Positions 38,496 to 47,805 of a stretch of 61,356 nucleotides of DNA are shown here, one piece after another (the stretch's first letter is position 1; each line of letters starts with the position of its first letter). The DNA comes from a virus, in the IMG/VR virus record IMGVR_UViG_3300048580_000637, positions 1-61,356 of that record, one strand, 5' to 3'. The notes below the pieces were generated by a model. It was not told the DNA's origin and did no database searches. It saw only the letters and a program-made list of their open reading frames with translations. Both the position numbers and the translations under genes were made by a program.

Positions 38496-40757
38496 CTAGC
38501 TGATCGTTGCTAGTGATTCTTTAAAAGGCACTGGATAACTTGAATTTTGAAAAACCCGTACTGTGTAAGCCGATTGGACTGACCCCCAGTCGGCTATCTG
38601 TTGCGATTCTGTGTAAACGACGCTTCGGGTCGATGGTACTGACCATTCTCGTTTTACTGTGTCCCCGTCGTAAATTCTGACTACATAGCTGTCCAATTCT
38701 CCTGCTGCGTAAGCAATGTCGATATAGTCGATCCAACGACCATTTAACCGCGTCCGTCGATACCAAGTAATAATTAAATCGTTGTTATCTTTTTCGCCTC
38801 TTACAGCACAAGGGAAAGGCTTCAATCCTTCTAGGGTGATTGTGTGAGCAATCTCGTCTTCTATATCAGTTTCAAGTAGTCCATTAGGAACTACTTTTAA
38901 TAAATATTCTCGATTAATATCAGAAAGATTTAAGGGGAATCGAACTAAATAATTAGTTAGTAACACAAATTTTTCCCCTATTATATGCCTAGAAATAACT
39001 GGTTCAGTTCCTTTGACTCCACGAATTGTATATGAAATATCAAAGGTTAAGGGATTGTTGGACACAATAGCAGCATTTTTAAAAGCTATAATTTCTCCGG
39101 TAGAGAACCAACCTAATTGTTTGCCCGATAGAAATGTTTCAAGAGTGACTGGCTCTAATTCCCCTGAATTCATGCTTACTCGTATCCAGTTTGAATCGTC
39201 AATAAAACTAGGAGAAGCGTTGTTAAAATTTGGGGAGAAGCTTAATACAGTACCAGTTGTGCTGTTGATGATATTGCCAGCAGCAAAATCATAACTTAAG
39301 CCGTTGTCATCGGAATAAAATAAGGCTCCTCTGTTAAAACTAGAGTTACCTTCAATTGCCACATAAATTCCTATGTCTGTATCTCGGGTATCAACTATTG
39401 GGCATTCAATAGGAATAGCGTTAGCGCGTCCGTAGGGACGAGGGCTGTTATTGTCTGGTGGAAATTCGTTATCTATAGGAATATCTGGTGAATATCCTAC
39501 TCCTTGAAATCGAGTAGCTTCAATTTCAATTAAATAATTTACACCTCTTACTTTCTTTGTAATTTGCATCAATTCCTGATGATAATTGTTATTATCATCG
39601 GTAAAAATTACATCCCCAACTTTCAAATTTTCCCATGCTGGCAATAAAAACATTTTTGAAAAAGTTTTTGATTGCGTTTTCCCTAAAAAAAGAATTTTTG
39701 AAGCAATATTCATGAAAAGCGTATCTACATCTATTAACTTAGTTTGAAAACTAAGCTCGTTTGTGTGAGTATCTGATGGGTCTTTAGCTACTACGGTAAT
39801 AGTTTCATGATTTTTTAAAACATTTAGTCCAGATACTGTAACGGCACTAGGAGTTTCTCTAAAATGAGTCAGTTTTTTCTCATTAATGTCAATAGGATTT
39901 TCTCCAAATTTTTTAGATCCAAAAGAGCTTTTAGGGATAAAAATAGGATCAGATAATTGTTCTTGTCTTTTAAAAATGATTTTATCTTTTGGCTCCCTTG
40001 CTACAATAAAAAAAGCTCTCATAAGTTCTTCTAACTGATCAGCAAAAGATGTCCCATCAAACAATAAATCAAATCCTTGAATTCGGTAATCATCAGGAAT
40101 GTCAGTCACATCAATTTGATCGTCTTTTCTACTAGCTAATTTACAAATAGTTTTCAAAATATCTTTTATTTTTGGATTGTCTTCACTTTCTCCAATCACC
40201 TCAATATCAATAGCAGGAAATCCAGTGCCGTCATAGTTAGCAATCGGATAATTATCGAAAATTAAAAAAGACATTCCAGTAAAAGCAGGTACTGGATTAG
40301 ATTCTTTTGATTGAATTACTGACGATGGTGTAGTTTGATTGCCAGTATAAATAGTTGTATGCTCAATAAACTTTAGGCTTTTTTCGTCATTAGTTTCGGA
40401 ATTGTAAACGAGGACGCTGTTCATCCAAACCCGCCTAACAGAGCCAATTTTTCTAGCAATTGGATAAGCAGCTGTCAGAAAATAAGTGTAAACTTCGGTA
40501 GTTTGCCCACCACCACCACCTTTTCCGCCTTGTCTTTCGGTCGTGACGACTTCCTTAAGAGGAATCCCCCACATCATAGTTAGCCCTTCTTTCCTCACTT
40601 TTCCAAAAGGATAGGATAGGCTTTTACCGTATTCAGCATCGGGAAAACCAGTATCCTCAATTTTTCCTTTTTGTTGGGTAGGAGGTTTAGGAGCAAATAG
40701 AGATAATAATAGGTTAGCTCCGATTCCTATCGCTACGGGAATGAGAAAATTAGCCAC
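38496..40757 (-). CDS. tail tip/central hub protein (lambda J-like)
   Basis: The 753-aa protein starts with a hydrophobic helix and APKPPTQQKGKIEDTGFPDAEYGKSLSYPFGKVRKEG, the start I associate with J-like hub proteins of siphoviruses. It contains a glycine linker (GGKGGGGG), an FADQLEELMRAFFIVAREPKDKIIFK region, and C-terminal FN3-like strands (DLIITWYRRTR...YVVRIYDGD). Forms the tail tip and DNA-injection channel. In related phages it follows NlpC/P60 closely, but here about 8.9 kb of accessory DNA intervenes. Confidence 0.8.
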   Translation of the reverse strand: MANFLIPVAIGIGANLLLSLFAPKPPTQQKGKIEDTGFPDAEYGKSLSYPFGKVRKEGLTMMWGIPLKEVVTTERQGGKGGGGGQTTEVYTYFLTAAYPIARKIGSVRRVWMNSVLVYNSETNDEKSLKFIEHTTIYTGNQTTPSSVIQSKESNPVPAFTGMSFLIFDNYPIANYDGTGFPAIDIEVIGESEDNPKIKDILKTICKLASRKDDQIDVTDIPDDYRIQGFDLLFDGTSFADQLEELMRAFFIVAREPKDKIIFKRQEQLSDPIFIPKSSFGSKKFGENPIDINEKKLTHFRETPSAVTVSGLNVLKNHETITVVAKDPSDTHTNELSFQTKLIDVDTLFMNIASKILFLGKTQSKTFSKMFLLPAWENLKVGDVIFTDDNNNYHQELMQITKKVRGVNYLIEIEATRFQGVGYSPDIPIDNEFPPDNNSPRPYGRANAIPIECPIVDTRDTDIGIYVAIEGNSSFNRGALFYSDDNGLSYDFAAGNIINSTTGTVLSFSPNFNNASPSFIDDSNWIRVSMNSGELEPVTLETFLSGKQLGWFSTGEIIAFKNAAIVSNNPLTFDISYTIRGVKGTEPVISRHIIGEKFVLLTNYLVRFPLNLSDINREYLLKVVPNGLLETDIEDEIAHTITLEGLKPFPCAVRGEKDNNDLIITWYRRTRLNGRWIDYIDIAYAAGELDSYVVRIYDGDTVKREWSVPSTRSVVYTESQQIADWGSVQSAYTVRVFQNSSYPVPFKESLATIS

Positions 40758-41357: not shown

Positions 41358-41440
41358 TGGGTTGGGCTGGATTTGCACCAGCGTGGAATTAAATCTACAG
41401 ATTTACAGTCTGTCACCTTCGGCTACTCGGTCACTAACCC
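41358..41440 (-). tRNA. tRNA-Tyr (GTA)
   Basis: 83 nt on the minus strand: acceptor GGGTTAG / CCAACCC (one A-C mismatch), anticodon loop with GTA, long class II variable arm, T arm GCTGG-TGCAAAT-CCAGC, discriminator A. No CCA encoded. A -10-like TAAGAT lies shortly upstream. Confidence 0.8.
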
Positions 41441-41470
41441 TTGTTTAAATTTATCTTACCACAATTAAAG

Positions 41471-41662
41471 TTATTTGTCTATAGTTTTGATAAAAAAATA
41501 AATTAGATTTACTTTTTCCGATGTCAGTGTTTTGATTTTCATTAAGATTTCTATTAATTTATCCTTAAGTTCTTTTTTAGTGGGTTCTGTGTCAGTTGGT
41601 TTGTAAATGAAAGTTTTAGCACTCCCATCTTGTTCTATTTTAATCAAAGTGTATTTTTCCAT
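41471..41662 (-). CDS. hypothetical protein, 63 aa
   Basis: I start at the ATG at 41662 (MEKYTLIKIEQDGSAKTFIYK); a longer frame from 41719 reaches to within 14 nt of the CRISPR array. The product is a short beta hairpin followed by a helix. It lies directly downstream of the array on the same strand, so read-through array transcripts would include it. Function unknown. Confidence 0.5.
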   Translation of the reverse strand: MEKYTLIKIEQDGSAKTFIYKPTDTEPTKKELKDKLIEILMKIKTLTSEKVNLIYFFIKTIDK

Positions 41663-41732
41663 TGTTTTGTTCTTCAATAAGAAATCCTGATATATCAAAA
41701 TGATATTCACTGTCACCATTTTGAGAAACTAC

Positions 41733-42793
41733 CCTGCAATCTACTTAACAAGTCAAGCCGATTGTTACAAAAACCAGTAAATGCGATGGTGAAGGTAGCT
41801 TTTTCCTTGCAATCTACTTAACAAGTCAAGCCGATTGTTACCCTTAGTGGCGAAGGTTTCCCCTGAGATGAAGCGTCACTTGCAATCTACTTAACAAGTC
41901 AAGCCGATTGTTACGAAAAGCGAGGGGAAACCGCGGCCACAATCTTAAGAGACTTGCAATCTACTTAACAAGTCAAGCCGATTGTTACTGTGGGGAGGGT
42001 TCCCCAGATTGTCGGTATAGTACCCTTGCAATCTACTTAACAAGTCAAGCCGATTGTTACGGAAAAGGAAAGATTCACTTGACAGATTCCAAGAGAAACT
42101 TGCAATCTACTTAACAAGTCAAGCCGATTGTTACCCCGATCGACCGCGAGTCTCTCTCGACAAAGGGGCTTGCAATCTACTTAACAAGTCAAGCCGATTG
42201 TTACCTGATTTTGATAACGTTGATTGGCACTGGATAGGTCTTCTTGCAATCTACTTAACAAGTCAAGCCGATTGTTACTAGATGAAATTTTGGCCGCAAT
42301 TGCTATAAGTAACCCACTTGCAATCTACTTAACAAGTCAAGCCGATTGTTACTTCGCGGTTTATCAGGCTTAAAACACCCCCATTGTGCTTGCAATCTAC
42401 TTGACAAGTCAAGCCGATTGTTACTAACTGATTAAGATCATCGGAGTAGTACACTTCTGTCCTACTTGCAATCTACTTAACAAGTCAAGCCGATTGTTAC
42501 CAATTGCCTCGATAATTTGATCCTTAGTTGCCCCTTCATCCTTGCAATCTACTTAACAAGTCAAGCCGATTGTTACCAGTTACCGGCTAGAGTGCCGGGA
42601 GTGTGGACGGTTCCAAACTTGCAATCTACTTAACAAGTCAAGCCGATTGTTACAGGTTCATTTTGGCAAAATAAGCCAAAATGACGCGCTTGCAATCTAC
42701 TTAACAAGTCAAGCCGATTGTTACTGGGAATACAATTTTGATCGCTCAAGTGCCGGTCTTGCAATCTACTTAACAAGTCAAGCCGATTGTTAC
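41733..42793 (-). CRISPR. CRISPR array 1: 15 repeats (36 bp), 14 spacers
   Basis: Repeat on the + strand starts CTTGCAATCTACTTAACAAG and ends GCCGATTGTTAC. Starts: 41733, 41806, 41879, 41953, 42025, 42099, 42169, 42243, 42317, 42389, 42465, 42541, 42618, 42689, 42758. Spacers 33-41 bp. All repeats are identical except one base change at 41733 and A-to-G at 42389. Minus-strand transcription is likely, since effector 1 runs into the array and the altered terminal repeat is distal. The repeat can form CTTGAC / GTTAAG hairpin. The final repeat overlaps the effector's stop codon. No separate leader is seen. Confidence 0.97.
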
Positions 42794-44475
42794 CCAGTCT
42801 CCCAGAGTGTAAGCTGCGTATAGTCTGCGTTGACTGTTTGCGCGGGTTGCGAGTGGATCGACCTTTTCCTTGTTTTTTTCTTAGGTGTCACTGGCTCGGA
42901 GGTCAAAACCAGTAAGGTTTCGAGGGTTTCTTCCCCAAGTAACAATCGGCTGGACTTGTCAAGTAATTCCTCCTGCGCTGATTCCTTATCGAAATCCTTC
43001 AGAGGCTTAACTTCCCCGGTGCAAGCCGGGTAGCTTCTTACGAAGTCTGCTTTCCCTAAGATGTTGATTGCGGCGGCCACATCTCTGGGTAAAGTACATC
43101 CACACTCTAAACATTTATGGGTGCGGGTTGATAAACTTTTTTTAACACGATTGCCACAGCGAGGACAATCCTGACTGGTGTAAGCTGGTTGAACTTTGAT
43201 AAACTCTCGGTTGGGAGTTTTCATTTTCGTTTCAAGAAAACCAGTTAATTGTCCTAAACTAGCATCAGCAAAGGATTTATTTAATCCCCCTTTGGCTTTC
43301 GCGTTATTGCGTTCGTAGCCTTTACCGTCTTCTCTTTTTTTCGGTTTAGGTCGTCGCATTAAATTCTTTAAGTTGAGGTCTTCTACGGCTACAGCGCCAT
43401 GATTTCTAGCAATATCGGTACTTAAGGCATGATTAAATCCTTTGCGTTGTCTTGCTATTTTTTCGTGAGTTTTGGCAACTTTAGCACGAGTTTTAGCGAG
43501 ATTTTTGCCGTCTTTATTTTCCCCTGCTTTATACTGTCTAGCGGTTTTTCTTTGCAGTTTTGCTAGTCTTTTTTGCTGTTTTCTATAGTATTTGGGCGGG
43601 TCAATTTGTTGGCCGTCGCTGGTACTAATTATATATTCTAGTCCTACGTCAATACCGATTGCTTTATCGGAATCAGGTAGATCATCTACTTCAAATTCAC
43701 CAAATAGACTTAGATAATATCCCGATGGGTATTTGATAATTGATACGGTAGAGGCTTTTCTGTCACCCCACCGAATATCTAAGGTATTGTTGATAATTTT
43801 TAAATCGCCTAATGTTTTGCCACAGCTACCTATAGATATTTTATCCCCTTTTCTAACAGCGCAATCGCTGATCTCAGAATAAAGAGATTTAATTTTATCT
43901 TCTTTTCTTTTAAATCTAGGAAGTTTTCTGTCTAAATTCTTTTTATCGAGTTTGGTGTAAGCTTTCCAAGAATCAGCAAGCTTTTTTAAAACCCCTTTGA
44001 CAAAAGCCATAGGGATGTCCTTGCATAGCTCTGGACATTTTTCTTTTGTAATACAGCCACATAACCCAAAATAATTATCAGATTTTAACCGCCGTTGAAT
44101 AGGGATATGGACAGGATAAGAGTGACCTGCTTTTTGTCTTTTTTCTCTAGCTATCTGTATTTTAACTTTTTGCTTGCCAGTTAAATATTTGGGGGTGTAA
44201 AGGGGATTAGGAAGGGATTTACCTTTTTCGTTTTTCAGGGAGTCAATAAATTGAGGTTTTTTAGCTAAACGACGTTTAACCCGTTTAACTGGTTTTCCTG
44301 TTATTTTCTCAATCTCGTCGTAATACTTATTAAGCTGATATTCCATCAGTAGCTCTAGCCCAAAATTCCAGACAGCTTTAAGCTCGTCCATCCAGCGATC
44401 AATATAGGCTCGCTGAGTAGCATTAAGGTTAAGCTTTATGTCCGCAATAGTTTTCTTGACTAGCATGGCTCTCAT
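42790..44475 (-). CDS. TnpB-derived miniature Cas12-like effector 1 (561 aa)
   Basis: RuvC triad is intact: D276 (AIGIDVGLEY), E365 (VAVEDLNLKN), D465 (LPRDVAAAINIL). A zinc ribbon (CPRCG...CLECGC) lies between the last two. The N-terminal ~270 residues form a TnpB-like WED/REC region with extra Cys (CGCITKEKCPELC). The 561 aa exceed TnpB (~400) and match type V-U/compact Cas12 effectors, perhaps V-U2. It would be an RNA-guided DNA nuclease. Stop TAA is inside the first repeat; the C-terminal extension contains the anti-repeat (42939-42965) and ends TLWETG, like effector 2's QLTIWDLLA. No tnpA. Confidence 0.85.
   Translation of the reverse strand: MRAMLVKKTIADIKLNLNATQRAYIDRWMDELKAVWNFGLELLMEYQLNKYYDEIEKITGKPVKRVKRRLAKKPQFIDSLKNEKGKSLPNPLYTPKYLTGKQKVKIQIAREKRQKAGHSYPVHIPIQRRLKSDNYFGLCGCITKEKCPELCKDIPMAFVKGVLKKLADSWKAYTKLDKKNLDRKLPRFKRKEDKIKSLYSEISDCAVRKGDKISIGSCGKTLGDLKIINNTLDIRWGDRKASTVSIIKYPSGYYLSLFGEFEVDDLPDSDKAIGIDVGLEYIISTSDGQQIDPPKYYRKQQKRLAKLQRKTARQYKAGENKDGKNLAKTRAKVAKTHEKIARQRKGFNHALSTDIARNHGAVAVEDLNLKNLMRRPKPKKREDGKGYERNNAKAKGGLNKSFADASLGQLTGFLETKMKTPNREFIKVQPAYTSQDCPRCGNRVKKSLSTRTHKCLECGCTLPRDVAAAINILGKADFVRSYPACTGEVKPLKDFDKESAQEELLDKSSRLLLGEETLETLLVLTSEPVTPKKKTRKRSIHSQPAQTVNADYTQLTLWETG
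42939..42965 (-). promoter_or_regulatory. tracrRNA-like anti-repeat inside effector 1 coding sequence
   Basis: On the + strand GTAACAATCGGCT-G-GACTTGT-C-AAGTA equals the array-1 repeat read on its minus strand, with two differences in 27 nt. Effector mRNA and crRNA therefore would pair over 13 bp, one mismatch, 7 bp, one G-U wobble and 5 bp. It encodes LLDKSSRLLL in the C-terminal extension, about 150 nt before the stop/array start. Confidence 0.85.
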
Positions 44476-44596
44476 GGATCGACCTTCCTTTATTCTTATT
44501 TAAATCTACCACAACCCTACTAGAAATGTCAAGTAAAAAGTCTAAAGATTTTTTGGGATACCAGTTCCCACATCAGAACCTGTAGCCCAACCCTTA
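44466..44596. repeat. 131-bp perfect direct repeat, copy 1 (partner 47361-47491)
   Basis: Identical over 131 bp, 2,895 bp apart. Covers the start codon region of each effector (MRA), RBS AGGAAGG, promoter and the last 18 codons of the 122-aa gene that lies upstream of effector 2. In this copy those codons (44542-44596) are a stranded fragment, so copy 1 derives from copy 2. Confidence 0.95.
44503..44532 (-). promoter_or_regulatory. promoter of effector 1/array 1
   Basis: Minus-strand TTGACA (44532-44527), 18 bp, TAGATT (44508-44503), then RBS AGGAAGG (44489-44483) 7 nt before the ATG. Inside the 131-bp repeat and identical to that of effector 2. No promoter is needed at the array since it adjoins the stop codon. 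Confidence 0.65.
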
Positions 44597-44675
44597 GTTA
44601 GGCTAACCATGTTCCCAAGAGAAATCCTAGTAATAAAGTTGGTATTCCAATAAGATAAATTTCGTGATTTATTAT

Positions 44676-44963
44676 TTATTCTTTATAATTATTAATAGTT
44701 TCCCAGAAATAAATCTCTGCTAGTAATTTATTTCTTTTAAGTATTAGTTTTTGCCAAAAACGAAAACTTTCAAAAAAGTTATCCCATCCACGAGGGACAT
44801 CAACAAAAATACTATCTAAAATGATAAGTAGATACCTCTCGACAAAATTGCGTATTGTTAAGATTAAAGAACGTGGTTTTATTTCCATTTCTTTTAGTTC
44901 CGCTTTGGTTAATTTTTTCCTTAAAAATTGACTAATCTTTTTATCTAGTTGTGTTTGATTCAT
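44676..44963 (-). CDS. hypothetical helical protein between the two CRISPR units (95 aa)
   Basis: A mainly helical protein (MNQTQLDKKISQFLRKKLTKAELKE...) with a hydrophobic middle (IRNFVERYLLIILDSIFVDV) that may be amphipathic or membrane-associated. Lies just downstream of array 2 on the same strand, so may be expressed with it. No family recognised; not a cas1/cas2 gene. Confidence 0.5.
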   Translation of the reverse strand: MNQTQLDKKISQFLRKKLTKAELKEMEIKPRSLILTIRNFVERYLLIILDSIFVDVPRGWDNFFESFRFWQKLILKRNKLLAEIYFWETINNYKE

Positions 44964-44987
44964 TGTTTTTTTCGGGTTTAATATTTA

Positions 44988-45383
44988 GTTTAATCTTAAT
45001 AAGGCTTAAGCTTAATTGTTTCACTCAAAATCACCCATAGGATGATATTAAGATGGTACGTTTCAATCCCTAATAAGGATTAAGGTTAATTGCTTTAACA
45101 TATTAATTTGCAAACAATAGCTTCAGATGAAGTTTCAATCTCTAATAAGGCTTAAGGTTAATTGCTTCATCGCCTAGACTTGAAATAATTCTCAATGATT
45201 ACATCGTTTCAATCCCTAATAAAGCTTAAGCTTAATTGCTTCTGTTAAAGGGGAAAAATTGTCATCATACCGTGAGTTTCAACCCCTAATAAGGATTAAG
45301 CTTAATTGCTTCGCTAATTGCGACCGGGTTAATTGGGACTACATTGGTTTCAACCCCTAATAAGGCTTAAGCTTAATTGCTTC
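44988..45383 (-). CRISPR. CRISPR array 2: 6 repeats (37 bp), 5 spacers
   Basis: Repeat on the + strand starts GTTTCAA(T/C)CCCTAATAAGG and ends TTAATTGCTTC. Starts: 44988 (degenerate, 35 nt), 45060, 45132, 45206, 45276, 45347. Spacers 33-37 bp, AT-rich. Repeats vary at several positions, best conserved near the effector and decayed at the far end, so the leader side faces effector 2 and transcription is minus. On that strand the repeat ends GGTTGAAAC, the common CRISPR 3' end. 97 bp separate it from the effector 2 stop. Confidence 0.92.
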
Positions 45384-45424
45384 CCATCTTCTTTTAGCCC
45401 TTGATGTAAAAGGGTTTCGGGTAA

Positions 45425-45536
45425 GGATTGCGCCCCATTCGCTAAAATTTAGTTTTCAAGGTTCTGCTCATTCCAAAAAATCAGGCTAGTAAATCCCAGA
45501 TCGTAAGTTGGTCGGGGTTTTCGGGGATTGCGCCCC
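45425..45536. repeat. 12-bp direct repeat across effector 2 stop/leader
   Basis: GGATTGCGCCCC occurs at 45425-45436 (between effector stop and array) and 45525-45536 (effector 3' coding end), exactly 100 bp apart, each preceded by TTTCGGG-like sequence. On the minus strand the second forms CGGGG / CCCCG around CGCAAT. It may be part of a structured guide-scaffold RNA. Confidence 0.6.
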
Positions 45537-47370
45537 GTGATTTTTTAGAACTTCGCTTAGATGCCTTATTGGGTAAGGCTTTCGGGTTATTTATGCCGTG
45601 GCTATCCTCGCACGGCTGAGGTGGGGCGGAAAGAAAAATAAGGGATTGCGAGTCATTCTCGGACTGAGTAGGTATGCGATTCCCTTCCTGCTTCATCTGC
45701 TTACTGATCGAGTGTTCGGCATTCTCTATCGGCGCGTCCCCGATAGACTCTTGATTTGCATCAAGATCAGGCGTGAATTCCCTCGCTAAACCGAGGTATT
45801 TTCCAATCAAAGAGACAGGAAACTTGATTAAAGAGCCAATCGCTCTTAAAAACTCATCTCGTAAGCCACGAATCAGAATATTTGCGGCGGCATTCTGATC
45901 GGCGTGGGCTTCGTAACCACAGCTAGTGCATTTAAACTTTGATTGACTAACGCGGTTAGCTTTATTAATATTACCACAATTGAAGCAAGTTTGTGAAGTA
46001 TGTTTAGGATTAACTCGGATCACTTTTCTGCCACGTTCTTTGGCTTTATTCTCGATGAACGTGCGAAGTTGACCGATAGCATTATCAAGCAATACTTTAT
46101 TTAATCCAGACTTTCTTTTTTTGCCATTCTGTTTATAGCCATTGCCGTCTTCCTTTTCTTTAGGTTTTGCGGCGGCTGTCATGTTTTTTAGTTTTAAATC
46201 TTCTAAAATAACTGATTGATATTCGCTGGTTATTTTATGGGCTAATTGGGCATTTCTCCCTTTTCTTTGACGGGCTATTTTCTCATGAACACGGGCAAGT
46301 TTAGCGTAAGTTTTACGCTGATTATTAGAGTTATCTTTTTGTCTAGAAGCTTGACGTTGCAATCGGTTAAGTCGCTTTTTCTGAATTTTTGCGTAGCGTT
46401 TAGCTTCTGATTGTCTCCCTAAGTCATCGGTAAATATTGCTACAGCACCCATATCTAACCCGACACACTTATCAGATTCTTTGTAGATCGTGTCGTCAGT
46501 TTCGATTTCGATAGTTAGCTGTAAATAATATCCCGTCGCTTTACGAGTAATTTTAGCCATTCGGGGAGCTTTCCCTTGCAATCGATCAAGTCCCCGTACT
46601 TTCAGTAATCCTATCTTTGAAGAAACAATAACTCCATTAGATTTAATCTTTATAGTTTCAGGTTGACCGTTAACAAGAGTCTCTACCTTATCCCGTCTTC
46701 CTTTAAACTTAGGAACCCCACGAATACCTTTTTTAGCGGCATCGTAAGCGGGTTCAATCACACTTTTAAAAAAGCCTTTTTTAAACTCTGTTTCAATTTC
46801 ACCGATAAATTTTGCTGTATCTTCTCGGAAATAAAAAGCAAGTTTCTGTCTATTAAGATAGTTAACAGCATCCTTATCAATATTTTCAGCATTCATAAAA
46901 CGACGGATAGGAATAGCATCTAAGGGAGTGTACTCTTTTCCGTTACTTGTCTTTTTAAAATAGGCGATTTTACAGCAAGGATTACCGATTAAAAGTTCTT
47001 TCTCTTCATCTTTAAGGGTTTCAAACTCTTTTTCGTCGTAATGCCCAAAATAACTTAACTCCCATATTTCAGGGCTAAACTCATCAAATTTATGTTTTGT
47101 GCGATAATATCTTTGTTTTGATTCTTCCTTAAGTGCGATCGAAAGATTCCAGAGTAACTTACACGCCACTAAAGAACGATCAATCTCTGTGATTTGTTCT
47201 TTAGTAGGATGTATTTTAAATTCTAAGACTTTCCTAGGAGGCTTTTCTTCCTTTGTCTTAGGAGTCTTTTTGACAATACTAAACCTTATATGCCCGTCTT
47301 TAGAACTAGGCGTTTTTTGAATTTGATACTCATCTACTTTACGCTTAACTTTACTTTTTTTGGCTCTCAT
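45481..47370 (-). CDS. TnpB-derived miniature Cas12-like effector 2 (629 aa)
   Basis: Intact RuvC triad: D306 (CVGLDMGAVA), E390 (VILEDLKLKN), D491 (AHADQNAAANIL), with zinc ribbon CFNCG...CTSCGY. The N-terminal ~300 residues are unlike effector 1 in detail; the RuvC half is clearly related (GNGYKQNGKKRKSGLNK vs GKGYERNNAKAKGGLNK). A ~120-aa C-terminal extension ends DQLTIWDLLA. Same promoter, RBS and MRA start as effector 1. Likely a compact type V-U effector using array 2. A partial anti-repeat-like stretch lies at 45555-45573. Confidence 0.85.
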   Translation of the reverse strand: MRAKKSKVKRKVDEYQIQKTPSSKDGHIRFSIVKKTPKTKEEKPPRKVLEFKIHPTKEQITEIDRSLVACKLLWNLSIALKEESKQRYYRTKHKFDEFSPEIWELSYFGHYDEKEFETLKDEEKELLIGNPCCKIAYFKKTSNGKEYTPLDAIPIRRFMNAENIDKDAVNYLNRQKLAFYFREDTAKFIGEIETEFKKGFFKSVIEPAYDAAKKGIRGVPKFKGRRDKVETLVNGQPETIKIKSNGVIVSSKIGLLKVRGLDRLQGKAPRMAKITRKATGYYLQLTIEIETDDTIYKESDKCVGLDMGAVAIFTDDLGRQSEAKRYAKIQKKRLNRLQRQASRQKDNSNNQRKTYAKLARVHEKIARQRKGRNAQLAHKITSEYQSVILEDLKLKNMTAAAKPKEKEDGNGYKQNGKKRKSGLNKVLLDNAIGQLRTFIENKAKERGRKVIRVNPKHTSQTCFNCGNINKANRVSQSKFKCTSCGYEAHADQNAAANILIRGLRDEFLRAIGSLIKFPVSLIGKYLGLAREFTPDLDANQESIGDAPIENAEHSISKQMKQEGNRIPTQSENDSQSLIFLSAPPQPCEDSHGINNPKALPNKASKRSSKKSRGAIPENPDQLTIWDLLA

Positions 47371-47491
47371 GGATCGACCTTCCTTTATTCTTATTTAAAT
47401 CTACCACAACCCTACTAGAAATGTCAAGTAAAAAGTCTAAAGATTTTTTGGGATACCAGTTCCCACATCAGAACCTGTAGCCCAACCCTTA
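47361..47491. repeat. 131-bp perfect direct repeat, copy 2
   Basis: Partner of 44466-44596. Here the segment 47437-47491 is the genuine 3' end of the 122-aa gene, indicating this is the source copy. Confidence 0.95.
47398..47427 (-). promoter_or_regulatory. promoter of effector 2/array 2
   Basis: Minus-strand TTGACA (47427-47422), 18 bp, TAGATT (47403-47398) in the 131-bp repeat. Overlaps the 37-bp motif also present before the 122-aa gene. Confidence 0.65.
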
Positions 47492-47805
47492 TAAAAGTTA
47501 AAGGCGGTAGTATCAATATAAAGGGGAAAACCTATAGCTTCCCAACAGTATAATAATCTTGGCACATCAACAATCTGAGACTTATAATTTAATCCTGTTT
47601 CAGTGATGATAAATTTTTCAAAAATCTCTGGGGCAACTAAAACAGAACAATAGCTAGTATCGTTAAATTTACCAGATTTTTTGGCTAATTCAGAAGTAAT
47701 TGCGATCAAAATCTCTTTTGTAAGTAATCTTTCTTGCGATATATTGCAACTATCTAAGTTAGTCCAAGCGGTAAATTTAACATAATTAGATCGGGAATTA
47801 AACAT
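47437..47805 (-). CDS. hypothetical protein, 122 aa, first gene of the effector operon
   Basis: Located 66 nt upstream of effector 2's start and under the same type of promoter. The protein (MFNSRSNYVKFTAWTNLDSC...) ends YKGWATGSDVGTGIPKNL, a segment whose DNA is duplicated upstream of effector 1. No family recognised. Conserved co-location with the effector could mean an accessory or regulatory role, or just hitch-hiking. Confidence 0.6.
   Translation of the reverse strand: MFNSRSNYVKFTAWTNLDSCNISQERLLTKEILIAITSELAKKSGKFNDTSYCSVLVAPEIFEKFIITETGLNYKSQIVDVPRLLYCWEAIGFPLYIDTTAFNFYKGWATGSDVGTGIPKNL

Follow-up and report, generated by a model that had tools for sequence, protein, structure and literature searches.

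Compact type V effectors such as Cas12f (type V-F) and Cas12k (type V-K) work with a tracrRNA that has an anti-repeat near its 3′ end and is located outside the effector gene. How tracrRNAs originated from the single guide RNA of a transposon nuclease is an open evolutionary question. A 2025 Cell paper reportedly describes TranC, TnpB-derived type V intermediates whose split omegaRNA gives a tracrRNA and a crRNA; TranC is defined as working with split crRNA/tracrRNA and also with fused, transposon-type RNA. TnpB has been described as excising its omegaRNA from its own mRNA, and a region of the TnpB mRNA complementary to the omegaRNA is reported there to lower cleavage (PMC10278001). For type V-U, a 2019 review calls the experimental demonstration of function pending (PMC6452270), and the paper on Aphanizomenon phage CL131 states that it detected no tracrRNA around its V-U2 locus and proposes a repeat hairpin (PMC6293099). 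Our literature search, with subscription papers and preprints mostly outside its scope, found no report of a V-U2/C2c8 tracrRNA or of a tracrRNA in an effector coding sequence. Here we analyse a virus record of 61,356 bases (the window) and propose that the 3′ part of one of its effector genes probably doubles as a tracrRNA, made by splitting an omegaRNA.

Two tandem C2c8 effectors and their arrays

The − strand of the window encodes a tandem pair of C2c8 effectors, each with a CRISPR array downstream:

41733–42793, − strand: CRISPR array 1, 15 repeats of 36 nt, repeat GTAACAATCGGCTTGACTTGTTAAGTAGATTGCAAG in effector sense
42790–44475, − strand: effector 1, C2c8 / type V-U2 (Cas12u2) RuvC nuclease, 561 aa (NF038192, PADLOC)
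44466–44596 and 47361–47491, − strand: 131-bp direct repeat, identical ahead of either effector, that includes a promoter-like site and the first codons
44986–45383, − strand: CRISPR array 2, 6 repeats of 37 nt
45481–47370, − strand: effector 2, C2c8 / V-U2, 629 aa (NF038192, 463 bits; cut-off 350)

Effector 1 scored 369.7 bits against NF038192 (curated cut-off 350) and E=5e-126 against PADLOC Cas12u2, and its RuvC acidic residues were visible by eye in an alignment. Both effectors combine a signature above cut-off with an adjoining CRISPR array, as expected of type V-U2/C2c8. Neither cas1 nor cas2 was found by Pfam in the 9 ORFs neighbouring the effector locus, and an Rfam search over 41400–47500 returned nothing above the gathering score. 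The array 2 repeat is nearly identical to that of the C2c8 locus on a Microcystis aeruginosa NIES-2481 plasmid. The host of the virus is most likely the bloom-forming cyanobacterium Microcystis: one Microcystis genome (L065) has an array next to a C2c8 gene, and spacers from it match the window at 39049, 33396 and 40678 at 97–100%.

The stop codon of effector 1 overlaps the first repeat of array 1. Before the effector, inside the 131-bp repeat common to both effectors, we found a promoter-like site with 10/12 matches, in a scan whose calibration gave promoter-like sites in all 11, versus 7.1 in shuffles. No terminator-like site was detected on the − strand down to the array, and no terminator-like or clear internal promoter signal for a separate small RNA. 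This pattern would fit a single effector-array transcript, and proves nothing.

A QLTLW-like motif is retained at the C-termini of several C2c8 proteins just before their arrays, and some TnpBs end in QLSLF; since these termini are kept, the overlap of gene and array is probably translated too. A AACCTTGAAAACT stretch, perhaps a boxA-like or leader element, is common to the window (about 45450) and a cyanobacterial locus (L130), near arrays. The 37 loci related to effector 1 and a list of 17 loci, many of them fragments, have one contig in common, so most records show a single effector type. In one of two Chroococcidiopsis plasmids (L059), S occupies the position of the first RuvC aspartate; no array was detected in the stretch examined of either plasmid (L059, L060).

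An anti-repeat inside the effector-1 reading frame

The 3′ part of the effector-1 gene contains the following elements:

42939–42970, − strand: anti-repeat, 42939–42965 as first noted, reaching about 42970 with one bulge
42969–43005, − strand: putative hairpin 2 (co-fold), directly upstream of and touching the anti-repeat
43009–43035, − strand: hairpin 1 of the putative tracrRNA, a two-tier stem with compensatory changes among relatives
42939–43040, − strand: predicted core of the putative tracrRNA, hairpin 1 to anti-repeat, entirely inside the effector reading frame

The original prediction was that effector 1 holds a 27-nt inverted copy of the array repeat with two differences, one of them a G-U wobble in RNA. 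We recovered this copy exactly at 42939–42965: TACTTGACAAGTCCAGCCGATTGTTAC in the effector mRNA, set against the repeat complement TACTTAACAAGTCAAGCCGATTGTTAC, forms 25/27 Watson–Crick pairs with the array-1 repeat plus the one G-U, and the second difference is a C-U mismatch. The element is sense-oriented within the effector mRNA and ends 145 nt before array 1. Because pairing extends to about 42970 with one bulge, it takes in about 31–34 of the 36 repeat bases, the exact figure varying with the method. When the window was dinucleotide-shuffled 100 times, no anti-repeat match appeared, even with up to 3 mismatches allowed. Scored by RNA energy against 640 windows of 44 nt from the 2.6 kb upstream of the array, the site ranked first at −43.0 kcal/mol (runner-up −23.0); between −200 and −110, 200 shuffled repeats gave −15.5 ± 2.8 kcal/mol. 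The anti-repeat is not especially open in its mRNA context, with a mean unpaired probability of 0.36 versus 0.42 in the surroundings.

Natural variation at this site changes the protein while sparing the pairing. The anti-repeat occurs in GA, AG and AA forms (44, 11 and 2 locus records, several of which share a contig), which swap the amino acid (codons for D, S and N), and both base pairs stay in 57/57 anchored locus records. A test for synonymous constraint in the effector-1 family was uninformative, with 0 variable sites among the 27 of the anti-repeat in 14 sequences anchored on the commonest form, a set that leaves out AG and AA.

Recurrence among homologues and a covarying scaffold

As the 37 loci closest to effector 1 were too similar to be informative, we collected C2c8 loci with other repeats: phage CL131 (L057), a Microcystis plasmid and genome (L058, L065), Dolichospermum (L064), Chroococcus (L063), viral contigs (L086–L098, L113, L115) and cyanobacterial genomes (L129, L130). 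Among these, L113 was left out of the energy scan (unclear repeat), L115 was included in the 20-locus energy scan alone, and L061 amounted to ORFs with a poor repeat. Scans for additional C2c8 genes at E ≤ 1e-75 yielded few loci (4/386, 2/217, 3/10 and 1/6 genomes, starting genomes included), and BLAST of array 1 against the phage collection gave no match.

In ten of the 20 loci, a top-three pairing site of the 2.6 kb preceding the array fell 130–165 nt ahead of it: effector 1 and its relative L086 (144 nt), L097 (145), L091 (132), CL131 (134, third-ranked), effector 2 (162), L058 (163), L129 (139), L064 (164, second-ranked) and L115 (165), the last from a distant lineage and with a repeat that is doubtful. 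No top-three site fell there in the remaining ten (L048, L045, L065, L088, L089, L090, L095, L098, L063, L130). When the repeat of each of 15 loci was shuffled 200 times and paired with the −200 to −110 region, at most 1/200 shuffles reached the real pairing in seven loci (effector 1, effector 2, L058, L097, L091, L064, L129); CL131 was weak (equalled by 5/200), and the other seven (L048, L065, L088, L090, L095, L063, L130) were not significant. A gapped test of 17 loci gave p < 0.05 in eight (effector 1, effector 2, L048, L065, CL131, L097, L091, L064), the best alignment of L065 lying elsewhere than the expected anti-repeat site, and p ≥ 0.05 in nine. The Chroococcus locus, L130 and the L088 group failed the shuffle and gapped tests alike. 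Given this mixed outcome, the anti-repeat is recurrent in C2c8 loci and not provable in every one. The search among homologues suggested by the original prediction came out positive in several loci with unrelated repeats; the prediction had also named array-bearing homologues lacking an anti-repeat as evidence against it, and the loci without significance (7/15 by shuffling, 9/17 by the gapped test) touch on that point.

The effector-1 repeat folds on itself at −8.7 kcal/mol, which makes a crRNA-only guide conceivable: the effector would be guided through a repeat hairpin, as in V-A, and the anti-repeat would be either a relic, left over from an inverted repeat, or a match that arose by chance. 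Self-folding beats most shuffles in several loci (as low in 4 of 200 shuffles for effector 1, 7 for L129, 7 for L130, 11 for L064 and 13 for L091), the seven loci lacking significance in the shuffle test would fit such a guide, and so would the published account of CL131, with its proposed repeat hairpin and no tracrRNA found around the locus (PMC6293099). We nevertheless judge it very unlikely, as self-folding is ordinary in CL131, L097, L088 and L063 (129, 91, 89 and 49 of 200 shuffles as low), and a relic would not fit the local repeat in several loci, be found again next to hairpin 2 or go on pairing when the encoded amino acid changes.

Local fit was most visible in CL131, L097 and L091, which have like flanks and between them differing anti-repeats, each fitting the local repeat, most clearly in L091. 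The L091 segment binds its own repeat at −33.3, that of CL131 at −15.1 and that of L097 at −19.6; neither the CL131 nor the L097 segment favours its own repeat over that of the other, and the own repeat ranks 2 of 15 in each case. The CL131 reading frame is truncated 258 nt before the array and the anti-repeat is still present, while the frames of L097 and L091 are open to −8. In CL131 (6515–6534 of L057), the anti-repeat is followed by AGTTGGCAAG, which equals the last 10 nt of the repeat and makes this locus the sole candidate for a fused-type RNA, possibly a natural fused guide. This copied end might point to one undivided omegaRNA that acts in cis and is guided by whatever follows the anti-repeat, with the array secondary. 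Such an arrangement seems highly improbable to us: by eye, among the loci compared, the copied repeat end occurs in CL131 alone, the first 20 nt of its would-be cis guide have no second match in CL131, and spacers of effector-2-type arrays match phage DNA beside GTY (below), so that array guides are those with targets.

Upstream of the anti-repeat, hairpin 1 is placed right after the RuvC core. Across 14 distinct sequences, 92.9% of its cells are paired, versus 70.3% when shuffled (0/500 shuffles), and its covariation score is 0.663 versus 0.196 (0/500), in a set that favours pairing, as 3 of the 14 were added by, and the others re-found with, a pattern requiring the stem; 11 of the 14 had been recognised earlier by their place after the nuclease core. 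Slid controls were 19–51% paired, and the number of pairs with double changes (5) was not above shuffles (169/500). In L129, hairpin 1 lies after the stop codon, outside the reading frame.

Hairpin 2, compared in seven sequences, has 97.6% of cells paired versus 61.1% shuffled (0/500) and a covariation score of 1.032 versus 0.337 (0/500), values that rest on other C2c8 loci, the effector-1 copy being placed by co-folding. All six of its pairs show double changes (reached by 15/500 shuffles); its count of pair types is not unusual (267/500), and one slid control pairs at 69%. By eye, the anti-repeat begins 0–1 nt after hairpin 2, and the last 4–5 repeat bases stay free. For the nine nucleotides beside hairpin 2 in seven loci, assigning each locus its own repeat gave the best total (52 identities) of 5,040 assignments, with anchors picked by eye and with CL131 and L091 being related. 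The effector-1 row alone matched its own repeat at 4 of 9 positions and the best other repeat at 6, because its pairing is bulged there. Effector 1 has, in its own locus, a complementary anti-repeat with a structured scaffold attached, as a putative tracrRNA would.

The order of these elements resembles that of TnpB omegaRNAs. We inspected 3′ ends by eye in 30 loci, drawn from nine cyanobacterial genomes and including two C2c8 loci and some wrongly picked ORFs; many showed the usual order of V(K/R)P-like codons, a GAATC-/CAGGAA-like element, a hairpin, a short tail (GTCAA or TTCAC) and the guide. With the search anchored on the TnpB gene, 17/24 cyanobacterial loci had, beyond the nuclease core, a 6-bp hairpin ≤8 nt ahead of a tail reading GTCAA, GTCAC or GTTCAC, versus 2.7 on average and at most 7 in 100 dinucleotide shuffles; a looser, unanchored count of terminal hairpins did not separate from its control (17 versus 14 of 28). 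By eye, C2c8 loci follow the same order, with the anti-repeat in place of the last hairpin and the CRISPR repeat as the missing arm. A TnpB-like gene of phage Mic1, gp49, is described as early, its disruption accompanying a low burst size (PMC11237433). We considered it as a C2c8 locus and rejected it, as it scores as a TnpB (113 bits with the C2c8 model, cut-off 350) and no such array was detected in 30 kb; public Mic1 RNA-seq therefore cannot test this tracrRNA.

Four viral loci (L088, L089, L090, L098) carry a second repeat complement within the effector coding sequence, at conserved PKLG codons some 1121 nt upstream of the array. It is 13 nt exact in L088 (0/1000 shuffled repeats); L089 changes both sides together, and L095 pairs more weakly there. 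This second complement may regulate the mRNA. The original prediction had offered such autoregulation as its alternative for effector 1. In a scheme of this kind, crRNA would pair with the anti-repeat, RNase III would cut the duplex and effector synthesis would be limited, with the anti-repeat outside the guide complex. The sense orientation of the anti-repeat inside the mRNA speaks for it, as do the L088-group complement, if it is such a regulator, and the reported reduction of cleavage by a TnpB mRNA region (PMC10278001). As a replacement for a guide function we think it unlikely, since it leaves unexplained the covarying upstream hairpins, the omegaRNA-like layout and the retention of elements outside the frame (hairpin 1 in L129, the anti-repeat in CL131). 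It is possible as a by-product, and both autoregulation and a tracrRNA can be true together.

Effector 2 has comparable candidate elements:

45775–45801, − strand: hairpin 1 of the effector-2 putative tracrRNA
45637–45662, − strand: small hairpin (45649–45662), then a proximal anti-repeat CAATCCCTTATT (45637–45648); p 0.032, gapped test
45549–45573, − strand: distal, bulged anti-repeat (z −4.2)

The proximal anti-repeat with its small hairpin has moderate support, and the distal one can alternatively be folded, by eye, as a local hairpin.

Spacer targets, proposed mechanism and known systems

Comparing 287 spacers from 27 loci with the collected loci, we found ten distinct effector-2-type spacers with matches outside arrays, 8 of which, as a raw count, have a 5′ GTY (in repeat-then-spacer orientation). 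This speaks for co-directional transcription of array and effector. Among the collected loci, spacers of effector-1 type found matches solely in other arrays. An effector-1-type array (L004) and two effector-2-type arrays (L053, L055) have a 30–31-nt spacer stretch in common, so both types may be directed at one element. One match falls on the effector-1 scaffold itself:

42961–42996, + strand: spacer match of 35/36 from the second spacer of the L110 array (another phage record), overlapping the effector-1 anti-repeat

The 5′ GTC of this target lies inside the anti-repeat. The spacer-bearing record measures 84 kb, is possibly a fragment, and the sole C2c8 gene found in it is effector-2-type. 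Six contigs with the AG form (L027 among them) read GCT in place of GTC; that these variants escaped the spacer is a guess.

We return to the reading of the effector-1 element as a tracrRNA, built on the computed pairing and position, the covarying hairpins, the local-repeat fit in part of the family and the GTY at most effector-2-type targets. Effector and array would be transcribed as a single unit, whose effector mRNA holds the scaffold (hairpin 1, hairpin 2) ending in the anti-repeat, and a tracrRNA of about 100 nt would be released from the 3′ coding sequence, its 5′ end processed by the effector (as TnpB does on its own mRNA) or by host RNase III. For every crRNA made from the downstream array, the anti-repeat would pair in trans with the repeat portion, leaving the last few repeat bases free beside the spacer, and the C2c8 protein would bind duplex and scaffold as its guide RNA. 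In evolutionary terms, the terminal hairpin of a TnpB omegaRNA would have been split, its 5′ arm staying in the gene and its 3′ arm moving to the CRISPR repeat. The original prediction, which saw a possible intermediate between omegaRNA and a separate tracrRNA, gains from the local-repeat fit, the covarying hairpins and the TnpB-like layout; with compensatory changes and this layout, that reading has evidence beyond bare pairing. The sequence comparisons support a tracrRNA-type element and, less firmly, its origin in a split omegaRNA.

An in-gene tracrRNA, with its 5′ arm coding and its 3′ arm in the CRISPR repeat, is the stage that a splitting model predicts. It would provide a putative missing RNA component for V-U2, making compact cyanophage effectors directly testable, and suggests that coding sequence is worth including in anti-repeat searches. 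Tentatively, and with more doubt than confidence, V-U2 might be a living halfway stage, in which the last omegaRNA helix is split between CRISPR repeat and effector frame and the same bases encode protein and tracrRNA, and which is also the ground of a fight between sister phages: crRNA of an effector-2 phage would be directed against a rival's scaffold and anti-repeat, and rivals would lose the GTY by a two-base change with pairing kept.

Among described systems, V-F and V-K resemble this locus in pairing a compact effector with a tracrRNA and differ in that the putative C2c8 tracrRNA lies within the effector gene. The locus of Aphanizomenon phage CL131 (V-U2) has the same effector family, an array directly downstream and the same setting of cyanobacteria and their phages; it was published without a tracrRNA, whereas here an anti-repeat and scaffold are found in or at the 3′ end of the effector gene, CL131 included. 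TranC (LaTranC structures 9jfo, 9jfp, 9jfq) is alike in the concept of a split omegaRNA and distant in protein (phmmer E 6e-7); the novelty of our reading falls if the TranC paper already covers V-U2. The layout also resembles that of TnpB (IS200/IS605): there too an RNA scaffold overlaps the nuclease gene at its 3′ end, codon runs of the V(K/R)P-like and (K/N/H)QE-like kinds lie over the scaffold (by eye) and, in 17/24 loci, a paired helix stands just before the guide. An OMEGA RNA runs on in the 3′ direction from its scaffold straight into the guide, and here 145 nt lie between anti-repeat and array; in C2c8, the last helix would instead form in trans with the CRISPR repeat, and the guides would come from the array.
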